From: Alistipes sp. | Lineage (GTDB): Bacteria; Bacteroidota; Bacteroidia; Bacteroidales; Rikenellaceae | Direction of reading: 5' to 3' | DNA length: 56,678 nt | Assembly: GCA_017403125.1 (NCBI GenBank) | Contig: JAFQOR010000003.1 | Coordinates: 1 to 56,678 of the forward strand | In this document: one piece after another, positions 33,499 through 41,909 of the stretch | How the letters are laid out: each line of letters starts with the position of its first letter | How positions within the stretch are numbered: the stretch's first letter is position 1 | The notes under the pieces: generated by a model | The model's input: only the letters and a program-made list of their open reading frames with translations | Database searches by the model: none | What the model was told of the DNA's origin: nothing | Program-made: the position numbers and the translations under genes

Positions 33499-33906
33499 TT
33501 ACCATGTTGTTTGAAAGAGTCTCCACCCCTCCTCTATCTCCTCCATCTTTGCTGCCACGCCATTCTCGATACGCGACATGGCGGCGACGATGGCTACCAT
33601 ATCGCGCTCGTTGCATGTGTCGATGCTCTGGTCGGCAGCGATGCCCGTCTGTTGCACAATATAGCGCACGTAGCCATCGGTGAAGTTCTCGTTGGGTGGG
33701 GCGTAGCGCGTGATGAGCTGTCGTATGGTCGATAGGCCGTAGCGACGGCGATAGCTATCCAGAAGCACGAAGATAGCGCGGTAGCCATAAGCCATCGAGC
33801 AGAACTCCTTGAACTCCGCGTCGCGGCTGGGGCGCACCTCGCCCTTGTATTTGGTCTTCGAGCGACGAATGTTGCCCGGATTGCAGTTCCTTAAACCCCT
33901 ACTCAT
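33499..33906 (-). CDS. Phage lysozyme-like protein (NPGNIR family)
   Basis: The 135-residue protein starts RGLRNCNPGNIRRSKTKYKG, the signature of small phage muralytic proteins often labelled structural protein P5. AYGYRAIFVLLDSYRRRYGL and ITRYAPPNENFTDGYVRYI fit the lysozyme-like fold seen in those proteins. No signal peptide is present, so export would depend on the holin encoded just upstream, whose gene overlaps it by 8 bases. It probably cuts peptidoglycan at the end of the particle cycle. The catalytic residue assignment is not certain. Confidence 0.85.
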   Translation of the reverse strand: MSRGLRNCNPGNIRRSKTKYKGEVRPSRDAEFKEFCSMAYGYRAIFVLLDSYRRRYGLSTIRQLITRYAPPNENFTDGYVRYIVQQTGIAADQSIDTCNERDMVAIVAAMSRIENGVAAKMEEIEEGWRLFQTTW

Positions 33907-34324
33907 CGCTCACCTCCTCTCCTATGCGACGTTTCACCCAGCGCCCCAGCCACTCGAAGATTGGCGCACGACTTATTGTTGCAGCATTCTCCAAGAAGGA
34001 CCACAGCTCCACGCCGCATACAAAGCCCGTGAAGATGTGGGCAAGGTTGAGGTGCATGAAGGCTATGACCTCGCTGTCGATGACCCATGTCATGACGATA
34101 GCTATAAGCACAAATCCGAGTTTTAGTACCGTGCGCCACGCCCTGTGGCTCTCGAACCACCACTGTCTGCCTTCGCGTCGGGCAACGGCGCGCGAGGCTA
34201 TGATGCCCGTAACGAAATCGATGAAGATGAAGAGGGTGGCGCAGATTATCAGTGGCGCTATGGGGCAGATTATGGCGGCTGTGGCAGAGCATAGCCCGCT
34301 ACCATACTTGAATAATGTATCCAT
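33899..34324 (-). CDS. Phage holin family protein
   Basis: The 141-residue membrane protein has hydrophobic segments at about 13-45 (IICPIAPLIICATLFIFIDF) and 70-88 (FVLIAIVMTWVIDS), and a weaker third at about 95-115. The turn FVTGIIASRAVARREG is typical of the phi-29/Cph1-type holin family, where TG follows the first helix and a basic loop follows that. It overlaps the lysozyme gene by 8 bases, a classical lysis pair. It presumably forms lesions in the inner membrane for release. Confidence 0.88.
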   Translation of the reverse strand: MDTLFKYGSGLCSATAAIICPIAPLIICATLFIFIDFVTGIIASRAVARREGRQWWFESHRAWRTVLKLGFVLIAIVMTWVIDSEVIAFMHLNLAHIFTGFVCGVELWSFLENAATISRAPIFEWLGRWVKRRIGEEVSDE

Positions 34325-34763
34325 CTATTGAGCAGCGATTTAGTTGATTGTGTTCGGGAGCATATTCCGGATATTCGTCGCTGTGGGAGTTGAGGTGGCG
34401 TGAGAGGCGACGTGAGAGGGTTACGGCCTTGCGGTGCAGCGTGCGTATCATAAGTTCGTTGTGCTTGCTCTGCGCATAGGTGTTTTGGTGGCGGCTCTTG
34501 TCGTGTGTCGAGCTGCGAATTTCGAAGAGGGGATGTGATACGTAGCGTGTCCACTGTGCGAGTGCGGGGGCAACATACTCCGAAAGAAGCGTGGGGTAGC
34601 TGCCGTTGTGCAGGGCGGCGATAAGCTCATCGCCCAATATCGGGCGCAGGAATCGCTCCTCGGCTTCGAGAATATCGGTGAGGGTGACGACCTCGGTGTT
34701 GATAAGTTCGTCGGCGGAGAAGGCTAACTGCGTAACCTCCATGCAGCTTATAAGTGTCTTCAT
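34299..34763 (-). CDS. Phage protein, connector/adaptor-like (DUF6712-type)
   Basis: The 154-residue protein starts MKTLISCMEVTQLAFSADE, followed by the helix ITDILEAEERFLRPILGDEL-like pattern that I associate with DUF6712 head-tail connector candidates of Bacteroidetes phages. The rest is helical and His/Arg-rich (TLHRKAVTLSRRLSRHLNSH). ATG 34763 was chosen because the frame upstream runs into the portal gene. It overlaps the holin start by 26 bases. The role as a head-completion protein is inferred from its place after the portal. Confidence 0.65.
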   Translation of the reverse strand: MKTLISCMEVTQLAFSADELINTEVVTLTDILEAEERFLRPILGDELIAALHNGSYPTLLSEYVAPALAQWTRYVSHPLFEIRSSTHDKSRHQNTYAQSKHNELMIRTLHRKAVTLSRRLSRHLNSHSDEYPEYAPEHNQLNRCSIDGYIIQVW

Positions 34764-34773
34764 AGTTAGTGCT

Positions 34774-36006
34774 TTATGCCTGCTCTGTCGAGCCGGGGTT
34801 ATACTTCGATAGGTTTGCCAGCAGTAGTTGCTGGTTGGGGTCGTTCTCGTCGTAATCCAAGCCATCGGCCTTGCGGGCCTCCCACACCTTCATATAGGGC
34901 GACTTGGTGTGTGTTGGCGGGCGGTTGATAATCTCCAACGACGAGGCGTCGATGAGTAGCGTGTTGCGAAGTGCGGCGCGTATGGGCTCCAATAGTTGCT
35001 CCTGCTCGGAGAGTATTATGGTGTTCAGTGCTACCTCATACTCATGTAGTATGCGCTCGGTGGAGAACCCTGATGAGTAGTCCAAACCGCTCAACGAACG
35101 AAACCACGAGTGGGCGATTACAAGGTCCGACTCGGCTTGTGTGTGTAGCTTGTGCCAATCGCCATCCGACGAGGTGTTTATGGGTATGAAGCGCGAGTTG
35201 TCGTTCTCGTCGCCGTCGCGCAGCACGAAGAGCACCTGACCGGGTGTTCCGGCAAACTTCTCCTCGGCGAGGCGTACGATTCTGTCTGCCTCCTCCTCGT
35301 TATCCACGGTGTTGTCGAGCATCATCACTCCCGATAGCTGAAACGAGTTGTCGATGCGCGTTATGTTCCACCTGTCGGTCTTATAGACTATGGCTGCGGC
35401 ATTCAGACCGGCGATGTAGGGCGCAACGCCATAGTGCGAGAACATCGGCTCGTAATCCTTGTAGTGAATCATCGAGCGCAGTGTGCCATCGCCAACCTCC
35501 TCGAATGTGGGGAAGAGGGGGAGCTGGCGGGCGTCGGTCGGCGTGAACGAGCTCCAATTGTGGTGCATGATTACGTGGCGCGAGTTGCGTGCAAGGCGGC
35601 ATGTCGAGGCGTCGTGTTGATAGAACGATAGGAACGAGTGGTTGCTGTCGGTTACGACCTCTAAGAAGGCGTTGCCAAAGAGTGCCTCATCCAGCGCAAG
35701 GCGAGCAACGATGCTGTGTAGCGTCTCTGCCGAGCCGTTGGCATGCGCGACTATCTCTCCAAGCATGGGCACGTTGTCGGCATAACTTATGCCCTTGCCG
35801 GCGATGTAGTCTGCCTTGTCGTTGATTATGCGGCGGTGTGCTGCCGAGCGGCGGGCTATGAGGGCGAGGGCATACGGGAGCATGTTGTCGTCGCCCCATC
35901 TCCAAACCCTTTCGGTGGCGCCTGACGCCCCCGCTACCGAGCCAAAGAGTGGCTCGGTGCGGTTCTGGACGGAGGCTATGCGCGTTGAATGCTTTTTATC
36001 GGACAT
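34774..36006 (-). CDS. Phage portal protein
   Basis: The 410-residue protein has VWRWGDDNMLPYALALIA at the N-terminus and KADYIAGKGISYADN. NAFLEVVTDSNHSFLSFYQH follows, and the C-terminal half contains GYSSGFS-like SGLDYSSGFSTERIL and LSEQEQLLEPIRAALRN. These fit the HK97/SPP1-type portal family that forms the dodecameric DNA gate of the capsid. Length is at the short end of the family. It is downstream of the capsid gene in transcription order, the reverse of the usual phage order. Confidence 0.8.
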   Translation of the reverse strand: MSDKKHSTRIASVQNRTEPLFGSVAGASGATERVWRWGDDNMLPYALALIARRSAAHRRIINDKADYIAGKGISYADNVPMLGEIVAHANGSAETLHSIVARLALDEALFGNAFLEVVTDSNHSFLSFYQHDASTCRLARNSRHVIMHHNWSSFTPTDARQLPLFPTFEEVGDGTLRSMIHYKDYEPMFSHYGVAPYIAGLNAAAIVYKTDRWNITRIDNSFQLSGVMMLDNTVDNEEEADRIVRLAEEKFAGTPGQVLFVLRDGDENDNSRFIPINTSSDGDWHKLHTQAESDLVIAHSWFRSLSGLDYSSGFSTERILHEYEVALNTIILSEQEQLLEPIRAALRNTLLIDASSLEIINRPPTHTKSPYMKVWEARKADGLDYDENDPNQQLLLANLSKYNPGSTEQA

Positions 36007-36044
36007 AGCTGATGTTGTTTAGGTTGGTGTAAGCAATTGGTGGT

Positions 36045-37016
36045 TTAGGAGAAGTCGCCTCTTACGACGAGCTCCTCGTCGAGAATCTCACATCCTGCCA
36101 TGAAGATTGCACGCTGACGATTCTCCATCTCATCGGGGTTGTACCACATGCGAATCTCGGAGCCGGGATAGTCGGCAGTATTCACCGCCAACGCAAGGTT
36201 GCGACGGTCGGTAAGCATGCAGTAGGTCGTAGGACCACCGTCCAACATCGGCAGATAGTGTGAGATGCCCATGTCGATAAGCTTGATGCCGTGGTAGTAG
36301 AGCTCACGACGCCCCGTGGTAAGGTCGCTATATGCGGCGTCGGTACCAAAGTTGTCGAGATAGTTCTCGTAGGCCTCGTAGATGTCCGATGTCACAAAGA
36401 AGGCGAGCATATCTTCGCTTTTGAGCGATTTGAGGCGTGCCGGAGCCTGGTCCCAAATGCCTTTGAGAATCGAGATAATGTTGTCTGCCGAGGGCTTTGT
36501 CGAGGCGAAGTTTACGGTGGTTACAGCGCCCTCATTGGCATAGTTGTTCAACGTCGTGATGAAGCCATTGAAGCGGTTGAACTTCTCGGCATCGACATTG
36601 CCAATCCACATCATCACGCGCAGGCTTTCGGCAATGGCTGCGCGGAACATCTCGGTCTCTGCCTGTTCGAGTTCGCTGCCGGTGAGGTCGTCGAGATTGA
36701 CATCTGCACGTGCGGTGATAAGCTCATAGACCTGATTTGCGTAGTCCGAAGCCGAGAAACCCACCTCTGCCTTTATCTTCGTTAGTTCGATGCGTTTCTG
36801 CTTGCGCTCGGCGCTGTTTCCGCCACTCCACCCGGAGGTGTACTCTTGCAGAATATCGGACTGCGGACTCCACATCTGAATTGTTGTGGGTACGGGCATG
36901 TTGTAGAGTACGCGGATGCCGAGGGCTGTGGCGTCATCGCCTTTGAGCATGGGTCGGAAGAAGATTGTTTCAAGGTCGCGACCTGTGTAGGTCTTGGGGT
37001 TTTCGATAAGTCCCAT
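36045..37016 (-). CDS. Probable major capsid protein, HK97-like
   Basis: The 323-residue protein follows the ClpP-type protease gene, as capsid genes do. Seen: VLYNMPVPTTIQMWSPQ, the helical segment SGSELEQAETEM-like region (about 110-130), the P-domain-like SLKSEDMLAFFVTSDIYEAY, and the C-terminal strand region AVNTADYPGSEIRMWYNPDE. I rely on order, length and alpha/beta pattern for the assignment, not on an unambiguous motif. There is no obvious N-terminal scaffold (delta) domain. Confidence 0.65.
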   Translation of the reverse strand: MGLIENPKTYTGRDLETIFFRPMLKGDDATALGIRVLYNMPVPTTIQMWSPQSDILQEYTSGWSGGNSAERKQKRIELTKIKAEVGFSASDYANQVYELITARADVNLDDLTGSELEQAETEMFRAAIAESLRVMMWIGNVDAEKFNRFNGFITTLNNYANEGAVTTVNFASTKPSADNIISILKGIWDQAPARLKSLKSEDMLAFFVTSDIYEAYENYLDNFGTDAAYSDLTTGRRELYYHGIKLIDMGISHYLPMLDGGPTTYCMLTDRRNLALAVNTADYPGSEIRMWYNPDEMENRQRAIFMAGCEILDEELVVRGDFS

Positions 37017-37087
37017 AGTTTTTTGATGTTTTAAGTTGTTAATAAAAAAGGGTGGTTGATGGTCTGTCTGTTGGTGTGTGGTTGTGG

Positions 37088-38275
37088 CTAACGCTTGCTG
37101 CGCATGGCGCGGGCATCATCCTCGTATGCTTTCAGACGCGGTGTCATGTGCATGTCGCCTATCGCAGGGTCGTCGCACTCCTTTGTTGTGGTAGGTTCGA
37201 TGTTGCGCTGACGCTCCTTGAAGTCGATGTGTGCTGCCGTGGTGACGTTTGAGGGCGTTTTAGGCGCCTCGCGCGGTATGAAGTTGATATCGTCGGCAGG
37301 ATCGGGCTGTGCAGGCTCTTTGTCGCCAAGGCCTATGGCGTGCAAGAGTCGTTTCAGGCTGCGCTCGGCACGCACTGTTAGCGTGTCGCCCCTTTCGGAT
37401 GTCGGTTGCGATGTCGCCATGTCGGGTACAAGCGTGTCGGCAAGTCCCTGTGCTATGGTCTCGGCAGGCGAGAGCCAGCGTCCACGACCTCCGTTCTCGG
37501 ACATGAGGGCTATGATAGTGTCGATACTCTGCCCCGAGTGCTTGGCATAAATCTCGGCAAGGCGGTTGTCGGTCAGGTTAAGCATCTCGACCTCGTTTTG
37601 CAACTCCTCGGCATTTCCCTCGGTCGAGCATATCGACTTGTGGATGAGATAGAGCGACGATGGTGCTATCTGGCGACACCCCTCGGTGGCGGCCTGTGCC
37701 ACGATTGTTGCTGCCGAGGCGGTGTAGCCGAAGCAGCGTGTGGTGATGTGAGCGCCGGTCGAGCGCAGTGCCTCGTAGATTAGCAGGGCGTCGTTCACGT
37801 CGCCACCTGTCGAGCGTATGTTTACCACGATGTGCGTGTTGCGTATGTCGGCAATCTGCGAAACGCGTTCGCGGAAACGCTCGTAGGTTGCAACCCTCTC
37901 TTCGGGATTGTCGAACTGCCACTGCTCCGAGATGCCTATCGTGCCCTCGATGTCGATTGTTGTACAGTCCGACTCGTTGCGGATTTTGATTGTGTGATTC
38001 ATGGTGTTAGGTTGTGTTTGTTGTTTGTCGATGTCGTAGATTATGGTGCGCACCTTCTCGTATGAGCATCGAAACTCTTCGGCTGTGAGGACCATGGCAT
38101 GGCAACGTCCATAGCCGCGGGCATAGAGGCTCGCTACGTGGTTGTAGATGGCTCTCCGCTGGCACCTTGTGACGTCGAGCAGGTCGTTGTTTAGTAGGTA
38201 TCCGATGAGGCGTTCATATCGACGCGAGGGGCGTGGCAGAGTGGCTGTTGCCATCGGCATGTCATGGTTGTTCAT
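37088..38275 (-). CDS. ClpP-type prohead protease with N-terminal extension
   Basis: The frame codes for 395 residues. The ClpP/S14 domain begins at the internal Met (38002, MNHTIKIRNESD), which would give a 304-residue protein of usual length. It has the oxyanion region VVNIRSTGGDVNDALLIYEA, the catalytic Ser in GYTASAATIVAQA and the His in SLYLIHKSI. Such enzymes cut scaffold and capsid tails during head maturation. The upstream 91 codons (RRYERLIGYLLNNDLLDV, ARGYGRCHAMVLTAEEF) are open in the same frame and look like a helical DNA-binding or small-terminase-like domain. Whether they are fused or begin as a separate start is uncertain. The C-terminus is disordered. Confidence 0.82.
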   Translation of the reverse strand: MNNHDMPMATATLPRPSRRYERLIGYLLNNDLLDVTRCQRRAIYNHVASLYARGYGRCHAMVLTAEEFRCSYEKVRTIIYDIDKQQTQPNTMNHTIKIRNESDCTTIDIEGTIGISEQWQFDNPEERVATYERFRERVSQIADIRNTHIVVNIRSTGGDVNDALLIYEALRSTGAHITTRCFGYTASAATIVAQAATEGCRQIAPSSLYLIHKSICSTEGNAEELQNEVEMLNLTDNRLAEIYAKHSGQSIDTIIALMSENGGRGRWLSPAETIAQGLADTLVPDMATSQPTSERGDTLTVRAERSLKRLLHAIGLGDKEPAQPDPADDINFIPREAPKTPSNVTTAAHIDFKERQRNIEPTTTKECDDPAIGDMHMTPRLKAYEDDARAMRSKR

Positions 38276-38350
38276 TGCAAAAGAGAGTTTTATGTACTAT
38301 GTTGGTTTGTAGAGATATACTCTTCGGTAGCGGGGGTGGTGAGGAGAGGG

Positions 38351-40678
38351 CTAATCGTGCAACGTGCGACGGAAGGTGCATGTGGCGATGCCCGTTGCGG
38401 GGTTGTAATCGGCAATCTCTTCGAGCTTGAAGAGTGACGATGCGCCCTGCATGTCGAGACGGAAGCGAGAAAAAATGGTTGCTCCTGCGGAGTTGGGGTC
38501 GAATAGTGCGGCGTATTCGGTGGCGTCGAGCAGAATGTTGCAACATAGTAGTTCGCGTCGTTCTCTCTCTCGCAACTCGTTAAGGTAGTAGCTGTTGAGT
38601 CCTTGGCATCCGTCGCGGTCCTCGAAGCAAAGGCTTGTTTGCGTGTCGGGGTCGTGGAACGTAGCAAGCGGATAGCCCAAGTTTTTGTCGAACGACTCCC
38701 ATCGTTGGCCTGCCGGTAGCGCTACAACACCCTGATATACCACCACGCGGGGCTCGATATAGTCGCTATTGCAGATGACATCGCGGTCGCCTATGGTAAG
38801 TACCTTTGCCGAGGGTGCCGAATTTGAATACCCCGTGAGTGATATTGTTGGCATGAAGAGCGGGTTGATAATGCTCTCTTTGCCCTGCTTTGCAGCGTAG
38901 CTCGCGACATGGAAATTCCACTCGCCAAAGATTTGCTTGTCGTTTACGTTGCGTTGGGCAACGCCATCGGGTGGCATATAGCCTATGCGCGTATGCTCGA
39001 AGCACTCCGTGGCACGACTCATAAGGCTCTGGCTGCCTGCAACCTGTCGCGAGCGCCAATCTACGACTTTCCCATCGTCCATATCGTCGTAAGGTTCGAT
39101 GTAGAGCGTCTTTGTTGGCTCGTGGGTGAAGAAGCGCAGGTTAAACATCTGTTTCACGGCATTCATAAGTTCGATGACTCTGATGTCGTGGTTGGCAACA
39201 TCTTCGTACTTTACGACCTCGCCATAGCCAACCGCTCCGCTAAATATGGGTCTTATGCTGCATCCGCTGCATAGCGTAGCCTGCTGTCCCGGCAGGGCGC
39301 CGCCGATGAACATGTCGTTGAAGTGTTTGGGCGATGTTGGTGTGTAGCGCTTGAACGGAGTGCGTATATCGACCTCAACGTAGCACTTGCCGGTGGTCTC
39401 AACATGGCCGGGATAGAGTGCCCACTCTCCCATGTAGGGCTGGTAGAATTGGCTTGTCGATGTAGAGTAGTAGAGACGGAGTGATGACCTGACATCGGCG
39501 GGGGTTAGAACATCGGTCTCTCTCTCGGTGGTGGTGACAATGGCGGGACTCCCCAACCTAAAGGTATATCCCTCTGTTTCGCCAAATATGAGCAGCTTGT
39601 AGCTGGTGTTGGGCATCACATTTTCTCTGCAATCTTGGTAGGGATTGCGCAGTTTGAGTTTCACTGTGCATCCTGCACATGGAGTGATGGTGTCGAAGCC
39701 CTGCAATGCGCTGCGCGATGTGATGTTGTAGTCGCTGATATATTTCAGGTGTATGTCGAAGGCAACATCTATTTCGCGCGTCGGGATGAACGAGGGATAG
39801 AGAGTGTTGAGGTGCATGACGCCGTTGTTGTTATAGGCGTTGCCGAATGTGTTGCCCTCTTCGTCGCTTGCGGTGGGAGATGTTGTATCAACTATCGCTC
39901 CGCATGAGTATGTCCCCTGCGGGCCTCTGATGTTTATTCTTCCCAGCGAGTTGGCTGTGGCGGTTGTGGAGCTTGTGCGGTAGGCCATGAAGCCCATGGT
40001 CTGCTCTGCCAATGCCGTATCTACGGAGCGGTAGGCGCCACTCATCATCAGACGGTCGAAGATGGGCGAGGAGAGAAAGTTGCTTTGGATTTTGTAGCCG
40101 CTGTCGTTGATTATGCGCTCGAATATGTGGCGAATCGATAGAAAGGGGTGGTAGTTGTGTGGCATGATGCTGCGTTGAGGCTCGTAGAGGCTGGTGTTGG
40201 CACTCTTTGGGTAGCTGTCACGCCACAAGGGTAGGAATCGCAGGGCGCTCTCCTCGCTCCATGATGCCTCGATGTCGGGAAGTGTCATCATCATCGTGGT
40301 GTCGAGTCCCACTTCGTTCAGGCGTGTGGTGGCTGCTCGCTCTGCCCACTCCGAGCCACCGGTGCGGATGCGTAGGTTGTATAGTTTGTCGCCACCGACT
40401 TCGCTATATCCGAGGAGCGTTACGATGCCCGTAACAAGTTGGGTGCCATCGTATTCGAGTGTTGCTCGATGATAGCTGTCGTTGAACTCAACGCTACGGT
40501 GCATATCGCAAAAGTAGCCAAATAGTTTGTCGGTTGTGGGTGTCGAGGCTATCGAGAGCGTAAGGTTGTCGCCCTCGCGCCATGCCTCGCACGATTCGAG
40601 GCGCGATGCTCGGTAGATGGGTAGTGTGACGTTGCCCACTACGGGACACTCCACATCGTCGATTCTGATGGTCAGCAT
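38351..40678 (-). CDS. Large phage virion/tail protein
   Basis: The 775-residue protein starts MLTIRIDDVECPVVGNVTLP, overlapping the end of the preceding gene by 7 bases. It is beta-rich, with Cys pairs (CSGCSIRPIF, PCAGCTVKL) and many Tyr/Asn-rich strands (YNNNGVMHLNTLYPSF). YGEVVKYEDVANHDIRVIELMNAVKQMFNLRFFTHEP followed by YIEPYDD recalls tail-hub (gp27/gp44-like) modules. I infer a tail tip or baseplate hub. No peptidase or glycosidase motif was seen. Confidence 0.7.
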   Translation of the reverse strand: MLTIRIDDVECPVVGNVTLPIYRASRLESCEAWREGDNLTLSIASTPTTDKLFGYFCDMHRSVEFNDSYHRATLEYDGTQLVTGIVTLLGYSEVGGDKLYNLRIRTGGSEWAERAATTRLNEVGLDTTMMMTLPDIEASWSEESALRFLPLWRDSYPKSANTSLYEPQRSIMPHNYHPFLSIRHIFERIINDSGYKIQSNFLSSPIFDRLMMSGAYRSVDTALAEQTMGFMAYRTSSTTATANSLGRINIRGPQGTYSCGAIVDTTSPTASDEEGNTFGNAYNNNGVMHLNTLYPSFIPTREIDVAFDIHLKYISDYNITSRSALQGFDTITPCAGCTVKLKLRNPYQDCRENVMPNTSYKLLIFGETEGYTFRLGSPAIVTTTERETDVLTPADVRSSLRLYYSTSTSQFYQPYMGEWALYPGHVETTGKCYVEVDIRTPFKRYTPTSPKHFNDMFIGGALPGQQATLCSGCSIRPIFSGAVGYGEVVKYEDVANHDIRVIELMNAVKQMFNLRFFTHEPTKTLYIEPYDDMDDGKVVDWRSRQVAGSQSLMSRATECFEHTRIGYMPPDGVAQRNVNDKQIFGEWNFHVASYAAKQGKESIINPLFMPTISLTGYSNSAPSAKVLTIGDRDVICNSDYIEPRVVVYQGVVALPAGQRWESFDKNLGYPLATFHDPDTQTSLCFEDRDGCQGLNSYYLNELRERERRELLCCNILLDATEYAALFDPNSAGATIFSRFRLDMQGASSLFKLEEIADYNPATGIATCTFRRTLHD

Positions 40679-41643
40679 CTTATGCCTCCTTTCTGCTCCT
40701 CTTCGATTGCTACGATAAGTTGTCGTGTGAGATGTTGTGTGTCGAACGTGAGTTTGTGTTCGTGTATCGTGACGGGCATAAGGTCGCATCCGTCAATCAT
40801 ATAGACATAGGGCGAGCAGACTATCTCCGACAGGCGTTCACACTCCTTTTCGCTCTCTATTGCCGAGCATAGTTCGCGTATTTTCAAAGCCTTGTGCAGG
40901 CGGTTATGTTTGTTGTTGCCACATGATGTCTGCGATATCGAGGCCTCGATACTTCGTATGCGACTCTTTGGAAAGGTGTAGCACTCCAACCCTCCGATGC
41001 TGTTGAACCACAATAGGCGGCGTGCGCTCTCGTCGCGCTTTACGATAATGTAGCGTAGGCTCTTTATTGGCGTTGAATCTGTCGATAACTCAATATCGAG
41101 CATCGTTGCATTTTTGTTGAACGACGCGGTGGGTATCACAACATCCATAATCTTGTTGTTGGAGCGTTGTGTACTCTTGTACTTAATGATGTCGTCGGGA
41201 GTGGTGATTTTGCAATCTATCAGTGAGGATGTGGGGGTGTAGAGCGTTAGGATTATATGCTCGCCGAGTGATATTTGTTGCACGCTGTCGATTAGGCTGA
41301 AATCGCGTGTTACACCCTCTTCGAATGGGGTGCGCGACAGGATTCGTGGCTCGGACTCGACACCATTTGCCACCACCTTTACTTCGAGTGATGGGCGTGA
41401 TACGTTCAAGATGCCGATTTTCGAGATGTAGGGCTTAATGTCGCTGCTGTTCAGTAGATAGGGGGCGATGTTGAACATGGCAGTGGTGACGCCATAGAGG
41501 CGCATCGTTCCGTACTCCACGTTGCCCGATGTCGATTGTATCGAGATTTCGACATCGGTCGGCTCCGAGAGCTCGGTGTCGATGCCGTAGATCAGCTGGT
41601 CATACCACGATGATCCATTTTTTGGGAGGGTAGTGAATTTCAT
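40672..41643 (-). CDS. Phage virion-associated protein, first gene of the operon
   Basis: The 323-residue beta-rich protein starts MKFTTLPKNGSSWYDQLIYG and contains IDTELSEPTDVEISIQST and LRLYG-like TMRLYGVTTAMFNIAPYLL. That pattern is frequent in Bacteroidetes phage tail genes just upstream of a large hub protein. A C-terminal region with Cys residues (ELCSAIESEKECERL) ends in a basic tail. No catalytic motif was found. It is the promoter-proximal gene and looks lower in GC than its neighbours. Confidence 0.6.
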   Translation of the reverse strand: MKFTTLPKNGSSWYDQLIYGIDTELSEPTDVEISIQSTSGNVEYGTMRLYGVTTAMFNIAPYLLNSSDIKPYISKIGILNVSRPSLEVKVVANGVESEPRILSRTPFEEGVTRDFSLIDSVQQISLGEHIILTLYTPTSSLIDCKITTPDDIIKYKSTQRSNNKIMDVVIPTASFNKNATMLDIELSTDSTPIKSLRYIIVKRDESARRLLWFNSIGGLECYTFPKSRIRSIEASISQTSCGNNKHNRLHKALKIRELCSAIESEKECERLSEIVCSPYVYMIDGCDLMPVTIHEHKLTFDTQHLTRQLIVAIEEEQKGGIRC

Positions 41644-41780
41644 AAAGTAAATATTTTAATATGTAGAGACTATGCTCGAAGATGTGACGCGCACAGCCGG
41701 CCTCGGAGGGTTGTGGCTGATTGTTGAAATAGTTGTTGAAGAAGTGTTACCGAATGTTTATAATATCGATAACATGCGTA

Positions 41781-41837
41781 TTATCAGTGGGTATATGGTG
41801 TTGATAAGTGGAGTGAATCCCTGTTGATTACTGATAA
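41781..41837. promoter_or_regulatory. Inverted repeat in the leader of the phage-derived operon
   Basis: TTATCAGT (41781-41788) and ACTGATAA (41830-41837) are perfect inverses, with the related GTTGATAAGT and GTTGATTA between them. It could be an operator or an mRNA structure. The binding factor is unknown. Confidence 0.35.
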
Positions 41838-41878: not shown

Positions 41879-41909
41879 CAAATATACAACAGAAAATATG
41901 GCTTGTCAA
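41879..41909 (-). promoter_or_regulatory. Promoter of the phage-derived operon
   Basis: On the minus strand TTG (41909-41907), 20 bases, then TATATTTG (41886-41879): a host-type promoter. The leader before the first gene is about 230 bases. Confidence 0.65.

Follow-up and report, generated by a model that had tools for sequence, protein, structure and literature searches.

The window analysed here, the whole stretch of 56,678 nt, carries on its minus strand a block of eight open, collinear virion and lysis frames between positions 33499 and 41643 (Table 1). Frame inspection bears out an earlier note on this DNA, which had described eight intact genes: all frames are open, and no terminase, integrase or tape measure gene is seen among them. 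No tRNA was found within the window. A simple codon model trained on the window scores all eight genes as coding, the holin partly and g1 with a low score. The GC content of the cassette is 0.544 versus 0.524 in the remaining window, and the third-position GC of its genes (0.63-0.73) compares with 0.64-0.68 for four host genes. The assembly itself is Alistipes-like (Rikenellaceae) and comprises 1.84 Mb in 31 contigs, with an estimated completeness of 88%.

Table 1. Features of the cassette and its leader, with the median dN/dS (number of pairs) and the number of loci, among 121, in which a gene is missing
Feature	Position	Strand	Remarks	dN/dS (pairs)	Missing
Promoter TTGACA-17-TATATT	41881..41909	-	precedes g1		
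TTATNNACA repeats (two) of leader array	41799-41807, 41755-41763 (span 41755..41807)	-	motif matches		
g1	40672..41643	-	323 aa; aligns with 320-aa gene of G087 prophage	0.271 (31)	11
g2	38351..40678	-	775 aa; longest frame 812 aa, reaching 40789; weak likeness to 1071-aa G087 prophage gene	0.229 (36)	5
ClpP-type head maturation protease	37088..38275	-	Pfam 2e-27; PHROG 94, 4e-32	0.185 (39)	2
N-terminal part of protease (F12)	38003-38275	-	~90 aa; separate small gene in many relatives		
Major capsid protein	36045..37016	-	own protein matches weakly, PHROG 1623, 1e-4	0.173 (41)	
Portal protein	34774..36006	-	PHROG 1e-16; Pfam 1e-7, under curated cut-off; slowest-evolving of the eight	0.121 (41)	
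Connector, DUF6712-like	34299..34865	-	0.0017, under cut-off; codon-model start 34742	0.231 (41)	1
Holin	33899..34324	-	Pfam 4e-11	0.151 (37)	14
Endolysin-family protein	33499..33906	-	PHROG 873, 3e-41	0.160 (32)	25

Profile searches of Pfam and PHROG return no family match for g1 or g2, and PHROGs offer nothing convincing for g2 or for F11, a tube-like candidate found upstream of g1 in some relatives. Of 34 relatives of the capsid protein, 29 gave hits to PHROG 1623 ('virion structural protein') and 6 to PHROG 212 ('major head protein'); a Pfam search with the capsid gave nothing relevant. PDB sequence searches with profiles of the capsid, g2, portal and g1, and with the terminase TerL described below, yielded nothing useful, the best TerL match (0.13) being to a terminase. 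The Ser, His and Asp of the protease are kept in 115 of 115 sequences (fraction 1.00); the roles of these residues, as of the catalytic-type residues of TerL and the repressor below, are presumed. The join of F12 and protease is read as a fusion in this clade. A small gene with a conserved C-terminal motif, F28, lies between g2 and the protease in L053, L055, L060, L063, L072 and L073.

The promoter reported previously is confirmed at its position before g1, and a related pattern occurs in 43 of the 48 leaders without F10, a second gene found upstream of g1 in some loci (relatives and window together). The leader also holds a repeat array. Across the 48 loci without F10, TTATNNACA is matched 94 times, whereas 100 shuffles gave 8.8 matches on average and never more than 17; of the 94, 92 are oriented with transcription and 2 against. 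Measured over 57 distinct leaders, 82 spacings lie at multiples of ~11.1 bp (coherence 0.90; 0 of 2000 random sets), a statistic that reflects leaders which are kin and share spacings by descent. Where F10 is present, the repeats precede it in 18 of 19 loci. The 9-mer resembles TTATCCACA, the DnaA box, and to name DnaA as the binder would be a guess. With one mismatch allowed, six genomes contain 16 doublets spaced at 11 bp, versus 3 for a reversed control pattern. A TTTTCGACA-TTATCCACA doublet also stands before a ribonucleotide-reductase-like gene, named by eye (L285, ~4958; contig 5 of G000), and a similar one is present in G095. Rfam gave no match to the cassette leader, and a literature search linking DnaA boxes with gene transfer agents (GTAs) gave nothing relevant among the matches listed. 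The single terminator proposed in the earlier note gained no support: there are 9 terminator-like sites versus 8.2 expected, none of them on the minus strand just after the endolysin.

A profile search for the portal indicates that the cassette belongs to most sampled members of the family Rikenellaceae and is rare in the rest of the order. Of 200 family genomes, 181 have the portal, among them 105 of the 109 high-quality ones, and it reaches 17 of 22 genera; it is present as one copy in all but six of the 181, which show two matches (a few matches are partial). Across the order, 14 of 393 genomes match: five Rikenellaceae score >700 bits, and of the rest four reach 275-315 bits and five 52-69 bits. 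Named genome contigs yielded 257 relatives; the titles of the 80 kept read Alistipes or Rikenellaceae, save one Tidjanibacter and two 'Bacteroidales bacterium', and A. montrealensis kh20 (L152) is a carrier with a strain name. In 121 of 121 cassette loci (111 distinct portal sequences), selected for holding the portal and with genes recognised by profile searches, the recognised genes are collinear on one strand. The complete set of eight is recognised in 87, and missing genes are partly due to contig ends. Of the core-gene flanks described in the earlier note, prfA adjoins the cassette solely in close relatives, 5 of 40 loci.

A dN/dS near 1 and frequent frameshifts in relatives had been named in the earlier note as refuting its reading. 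The dN/dS medians of the eight genes lie far below 1, at 0.12-0.27 with 31-41 pairs per gene (Nei-Gojobori, 41 greedily chosen non-overlapping pairs; dropped per gene at alignments <40 codons, frames <150 bases or dS outside 0.02-3), with single pairs reaching 0.4-1.0 and synonymous sites often near saturation. The portal frames listed are free of stops save in four rows.

The own genome holds one Terminase_6N (PF03237) place, on contig 30, apart from the cassette contig, and this is the lone terminase for which a search had been advised; it is conserved across the family. In a set of 16 genomes, PF03237 finds at least one place in 15 and the control model TerL_ATPase (PF03354) in 4. The TerL of 476 aa (PHROG 38, 8e-94) is preceded by a 95-aa gene with no family match and no recognised fold, an unproven candidate for the small terminase. 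Opposite TerL lies a divergent gene whose 226-aa product combines an HTH domain with an S24 peptidase domain, a LexA/cI-type repressor. Across the 37 TerL loci read (three further terminase places of G087, L103, L104 and L106, were left out), the repressor is matched in 37 and the 95-aa gene in 34, those 34 sharing one divergent layout. The GKS, Asp-Asp and nuclease-type Asp of TerL are kept in at least 95% of the 37. The repressor keeps Ala109 in 34, Gly110 in 36, Ser145 in 33 and Lys188 in 33 of 37 loci; this LexA-like Ala-Gly site and Ser/Lys pair hint at SOS control. Operator-like repeats of the repressor were not seen by eye upstream of the cassette. The nearest phage relatives of TerL are Bacteroides fragilis siphoviruses (48%), and relatives occur at 25 loci in viral contigs.

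TerL is present in 180 of the same 200 family genomes. Portal and TerL occur together in 174, the portal only in 7, TerL only in 6 and neither in 13 (Fisher p 2e-11, a value that ignores relatedness and incomplete genomes). Eight of these 13 are all the sampled members of genera g2, g10, g12 and g22, in which the gene called g2 is absent as well; the other five genomes are <71% complete. In one genome of another genus, G013 of g14, clpP, capsid, portal and connector come directly after repressor and TerL at a single site, and this linkage is the main tie between the two loci; the g2 gene was not found in the four g14 genomes searched, G013 included. In four genomes, G072, G165, G041 and G069, the TerL sequence falls into two separate matches. 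In G072 (L100), it is broken though the genome is 99% complete and the portal is kept. G046, also 99% complete, has TerL and lacks portal and g2.

Protein distances of polA over 28 genomes correlate with those of TerL (0.78), portal (0.75) and capsid (0.62), and beyond polA, TerL and portal distances show no correlation (partial r -0.13; 28 genomes). FastTree trees of 27 genomes, with G072 left out, share with polA 16 of 24 splits for the portal, 10 for TerL and 11 for the capsid, where 1000 label shuffles reach at most 3.

Intact relatives of the cassette bear on the origin of its shell. One is a prophage (L106, L215) in G087, an Alistipes genome that also carries the cassette. Its genes run in the order 167-aa gene, 320-aa g1-like gene, g2, 734-aa tape measure, protease-like gene, capsid, F11, portal, with matches for g2 (3e-9), tape measure PHROG (2e-7), capsid (2e-5), F11 (1e-5) and portal (4e-25; E-values for a small set); the F11-like gene is the one next after the capsid. 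The annotation of the other, Bacteroides phage BU2-2 (PQ571282), shows this layout as well, with a tape measure between g2 and protease, plus portal, holin and endolysin. The protease-capsid-portal order is that of both intact phages, and the earlier note was wrong to argue from it as unusual. For six of ten cassette profiles the top match in BU2-2 is the corresponding gene, with E-values of 3e-10 for the capsid, 0.001 for g1 and 0.005 for the portal and no significance for g2, protease and holin; the corresponding gene is not ranked first for F10, F11, connector and endolysin, and F12 best matches gp17 (0.002), at a different position. Profile comparisons with BU2-2 are weak for g1 (3%) and portal (9%) and negative for g2 (2%), F11 (0.5%) and F10 (0.2%). 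Clear homology to BU2-2 is limited to the capsid. The TerL profile does not match the terminase of BU2-2 or of the G087 prophage, which is of a different type in both. The shell may therefore derive from one phage and the motor from another.

The gap between g2 and protease is at most 908 bases over 116 cassette loci, and hence no tape measure of the size found in the G087 prophage fits there. Among 16 genomes, a tape measure of this type was found in G087 itself (plus one weak match there) and is absent from the 15 others. Of 105 loci with room upstream of g1, 37 carry F10 together with F11, 5 carry F10 without F11 and 63 have neither. In 22 genomes searched, F11 occurs in 3 and F10 in 4, always at the cassette; neither was found in the own genome or in any of 16 others in which the cassette is likewise devoid of both. 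A tail tube or tape measure elsewhere in the own genome, as the earlier note had considered, thus did not turn up in the form of F11 or of the G087-type gene.

Related elements also occur outside the family. Four other Bacteroidales genomes carry terminase-protease-capsid-portal-connector elements (L205-L209) with no evident tail genes in the stretch read; G370 has two copies, and those of G544 and G507 are near-identical although these genomes belong to different families. Some IMG/VR 'viral' contigs contain the cassette (L032-L036, L289-L291) and are probably host chromosome. Fragments of it are also contained in two GenBank 'Bacteriophage sp.' records from human faeces, of which the MT838736 scaffold (L319) includes a flanking frame on the other strand. 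The available text of PMC8361208 describes a study of DNase-treated particles from children, to which no tie of the MT838736 record is established.

We consider it probable that the cassette and the TerL module together represent a vertically inherited, tail-reduced, GTA-like viriform. The domesticated particle with packaging supplied elsewhere, which the earlier note had put forward as an inference, gains support from the family-conserved unlinked terminase and the low dN/dS, and a complete prophage at this very site, which that note held to be incompatible with it, was not seen in the relatives fetched. An old tailed-phage structural and lysis operon would have been domesticated by an ancestor of most Rikenellaceae, with loss of the tape measure relative to the intact relatives and loss of F10 and F11 in many lineages, the present one included. 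The packaging motor would consist of TerL and its small partner gene at the unlinked locus beside the repressor. Upon DNA damage, active RecA might induce self-cleavage of the repressor, allowing TerL and its partner to be made, while the cassette promoter, modulated by the repeat array of the leader, would drive protease, capsid, portal and connector. TerL would then load chromosomal DNA into tail-less or short-tailed capsids, holin and endolysin would lyse the producer, and g1 and g2 might have a role in attachment. The analysis establishes gene content, open frames, family-wide conservation, purifying selection, the host-congruent portal tree and the co-occurring second locus; the service of TerL to this capsid, the SOS control, the particles, the packaging of host DNA and its transfer are inferred. 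Several observations speak against this reading, namely the different terminase type of the nearest intact phages, the conflicts of TerL and capsid trees with polA and the uncorrelated TerL and portal distances beyond the host, as well as the four split TerL, the stops in four portal rows, the G046 TerL with neither portal nor g2 and the g14 genomes with no g2. To these come the failure to find a tube or tape measure through which DNA might enter a cell, and the repressor's operator-like repeats not being seen before the cassette.

A more specific form, which we regard as possible and on balance unlikely, assumes tail-less transfer under two controls. The SOS-type repressor would free the motor, and the 11-bp-phased array of DnaA-box-like repeats would sense the replication state for the shell and lysis operon, such that DNA-filled particles arise only when damage and replication stress coincide. 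The system would then be a viriform of a new phylum, its shell taken from one phage and its motor perhaps from a second, and loss of the tape measure would be a domestication step.

Other explanations have to be weighed against the GTA-like viriform. Capsid-forming PICI satellites encode their own capsid and packaging functions, lack a complete tail and are mobile islands that need a helper phage. A domesticated or fixed satellite of this kind, with its own head, packaging DNA and borrowing tails from helper phages, would agree with the presence of head, portal, connector and terminase with no tail tube or tape measure, and the Bacteroidales elements with no evident tail genes, near-identical in two genomes of different families, point the same way. 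The Rikenellaceae system is instead fixed, split and vertical, with no integrase frame in the cassette, nearly always one copy, an unlinked motor and its own lysis genes, and we therefore find this origin improbable. We give slightly less credence still to a capsid retained for some different purpose, such as lysis or the carriage of protein in a shell free of DNA, with TerL co-conserved independently. The other terminase type of the nearest intact phages and the apparently different control of TerL and cassette leaders would suit such a shell, yet the portal is the slowest-evolving gene of the eight, TerL adjoins capsid and portal genes in G013, and portal and TerL are absent together from four genera.

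A defective prophage or remnant drifting to loss would explain a locus with no tape measure, terminase or tail genes, and also the TerL splits or portal stops of some genomes. It is very hard to reconcile with family-wide presence, collinearity, the range of dN/dS and the host-congruent portal tree, and we hold it to be most improbable. Long-term purifying selection excludes simple decay for practical purposes, and decay was rejected on dN/dS and conservation. A recent or active prophage would place a whole gene set at one site and occur sporadically; the system has eight genes here, an unlinked terminase and a family-wide distribution.

Alistipes inhabits animal and human guts. If working, the system would provide a major gut family with an unrecognised, inherited vehicle of gene exchange. 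Since G087 holds both the cassette and an intact relative, the path from a tailed phage to a split-locus machine with no tape measure can be read within one genus. In a literature search outside subscription papers and preprints, no GTA of Bacteroidota or Alistipes appeared among the matches listed, as far as their accessible text goes.

In the accessible text of PMC9662315, GTAs are defined by six features. Of the first, caudoviricete-derived proteins that form particles, the proteins are present in the cassette. Full endogenisation over several loci is found, with cassette and TerL, which are presumed to work together, on different contigs and both conserved in the family, and so is vertical inheritance with host co-diversification: of 15 supported polA splits over 27 genomes, the portal conflicts with 0, TerL with 2 and the capsid with 3. 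The further features are encapsidation of mostly random host DNA, a head too small for its own genes and delivery to other cells. With the two features of endogenisation and vertical inheritance out of six, we speak of a GTA-like candidate viriform and not of a GTA.

Among known systems, FpGTA I and II of Faecalibacterium, like the present host a gut anaerobe, distribute structural and lysis genes over two operons, ~125 kb apart in one strain, and form particles with no identifiable tails, according to the available part of PMC12946183. In these Bacillota, the same part states, TerL lies alongside portal and capsid, with the lysis genes in the second operon, whereas the TerL of Rikenellaceae has a locus of its own beside a LexA-type repressor. 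For FpGTA, that text demonstrates particles and packaged DNA, while the Rikenellaceae system is known from genes alone. The same source describes abundant Rikenellaceae in the faecal DNA of three donors and attributes 23 of the 25 GTA-like events to three families of Bacillota; the accessible text names no Rikenellaceae event, indicating that the system, if active at all, is probably so rarely or on induction. Alphaproteobacterial GTAs such as RcGTA are, in the text seen of PMC9662315 and PMC11841831, likewise caudoviricete-derived, vertical and spread over several loci. They belong to a different phylum and ancestor, in contrast to the Rikenellaceae system, which is known from genes with no tube or tape measure found. 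Closest in layout are the G087 prophage and BU2-2, which have in common with the cassette the order g1, g2, protease, capsid, portal, connector and, unlike it, encode a tape measure and, close to the virion genes, a terminase of their own that differs from the TerL described here.
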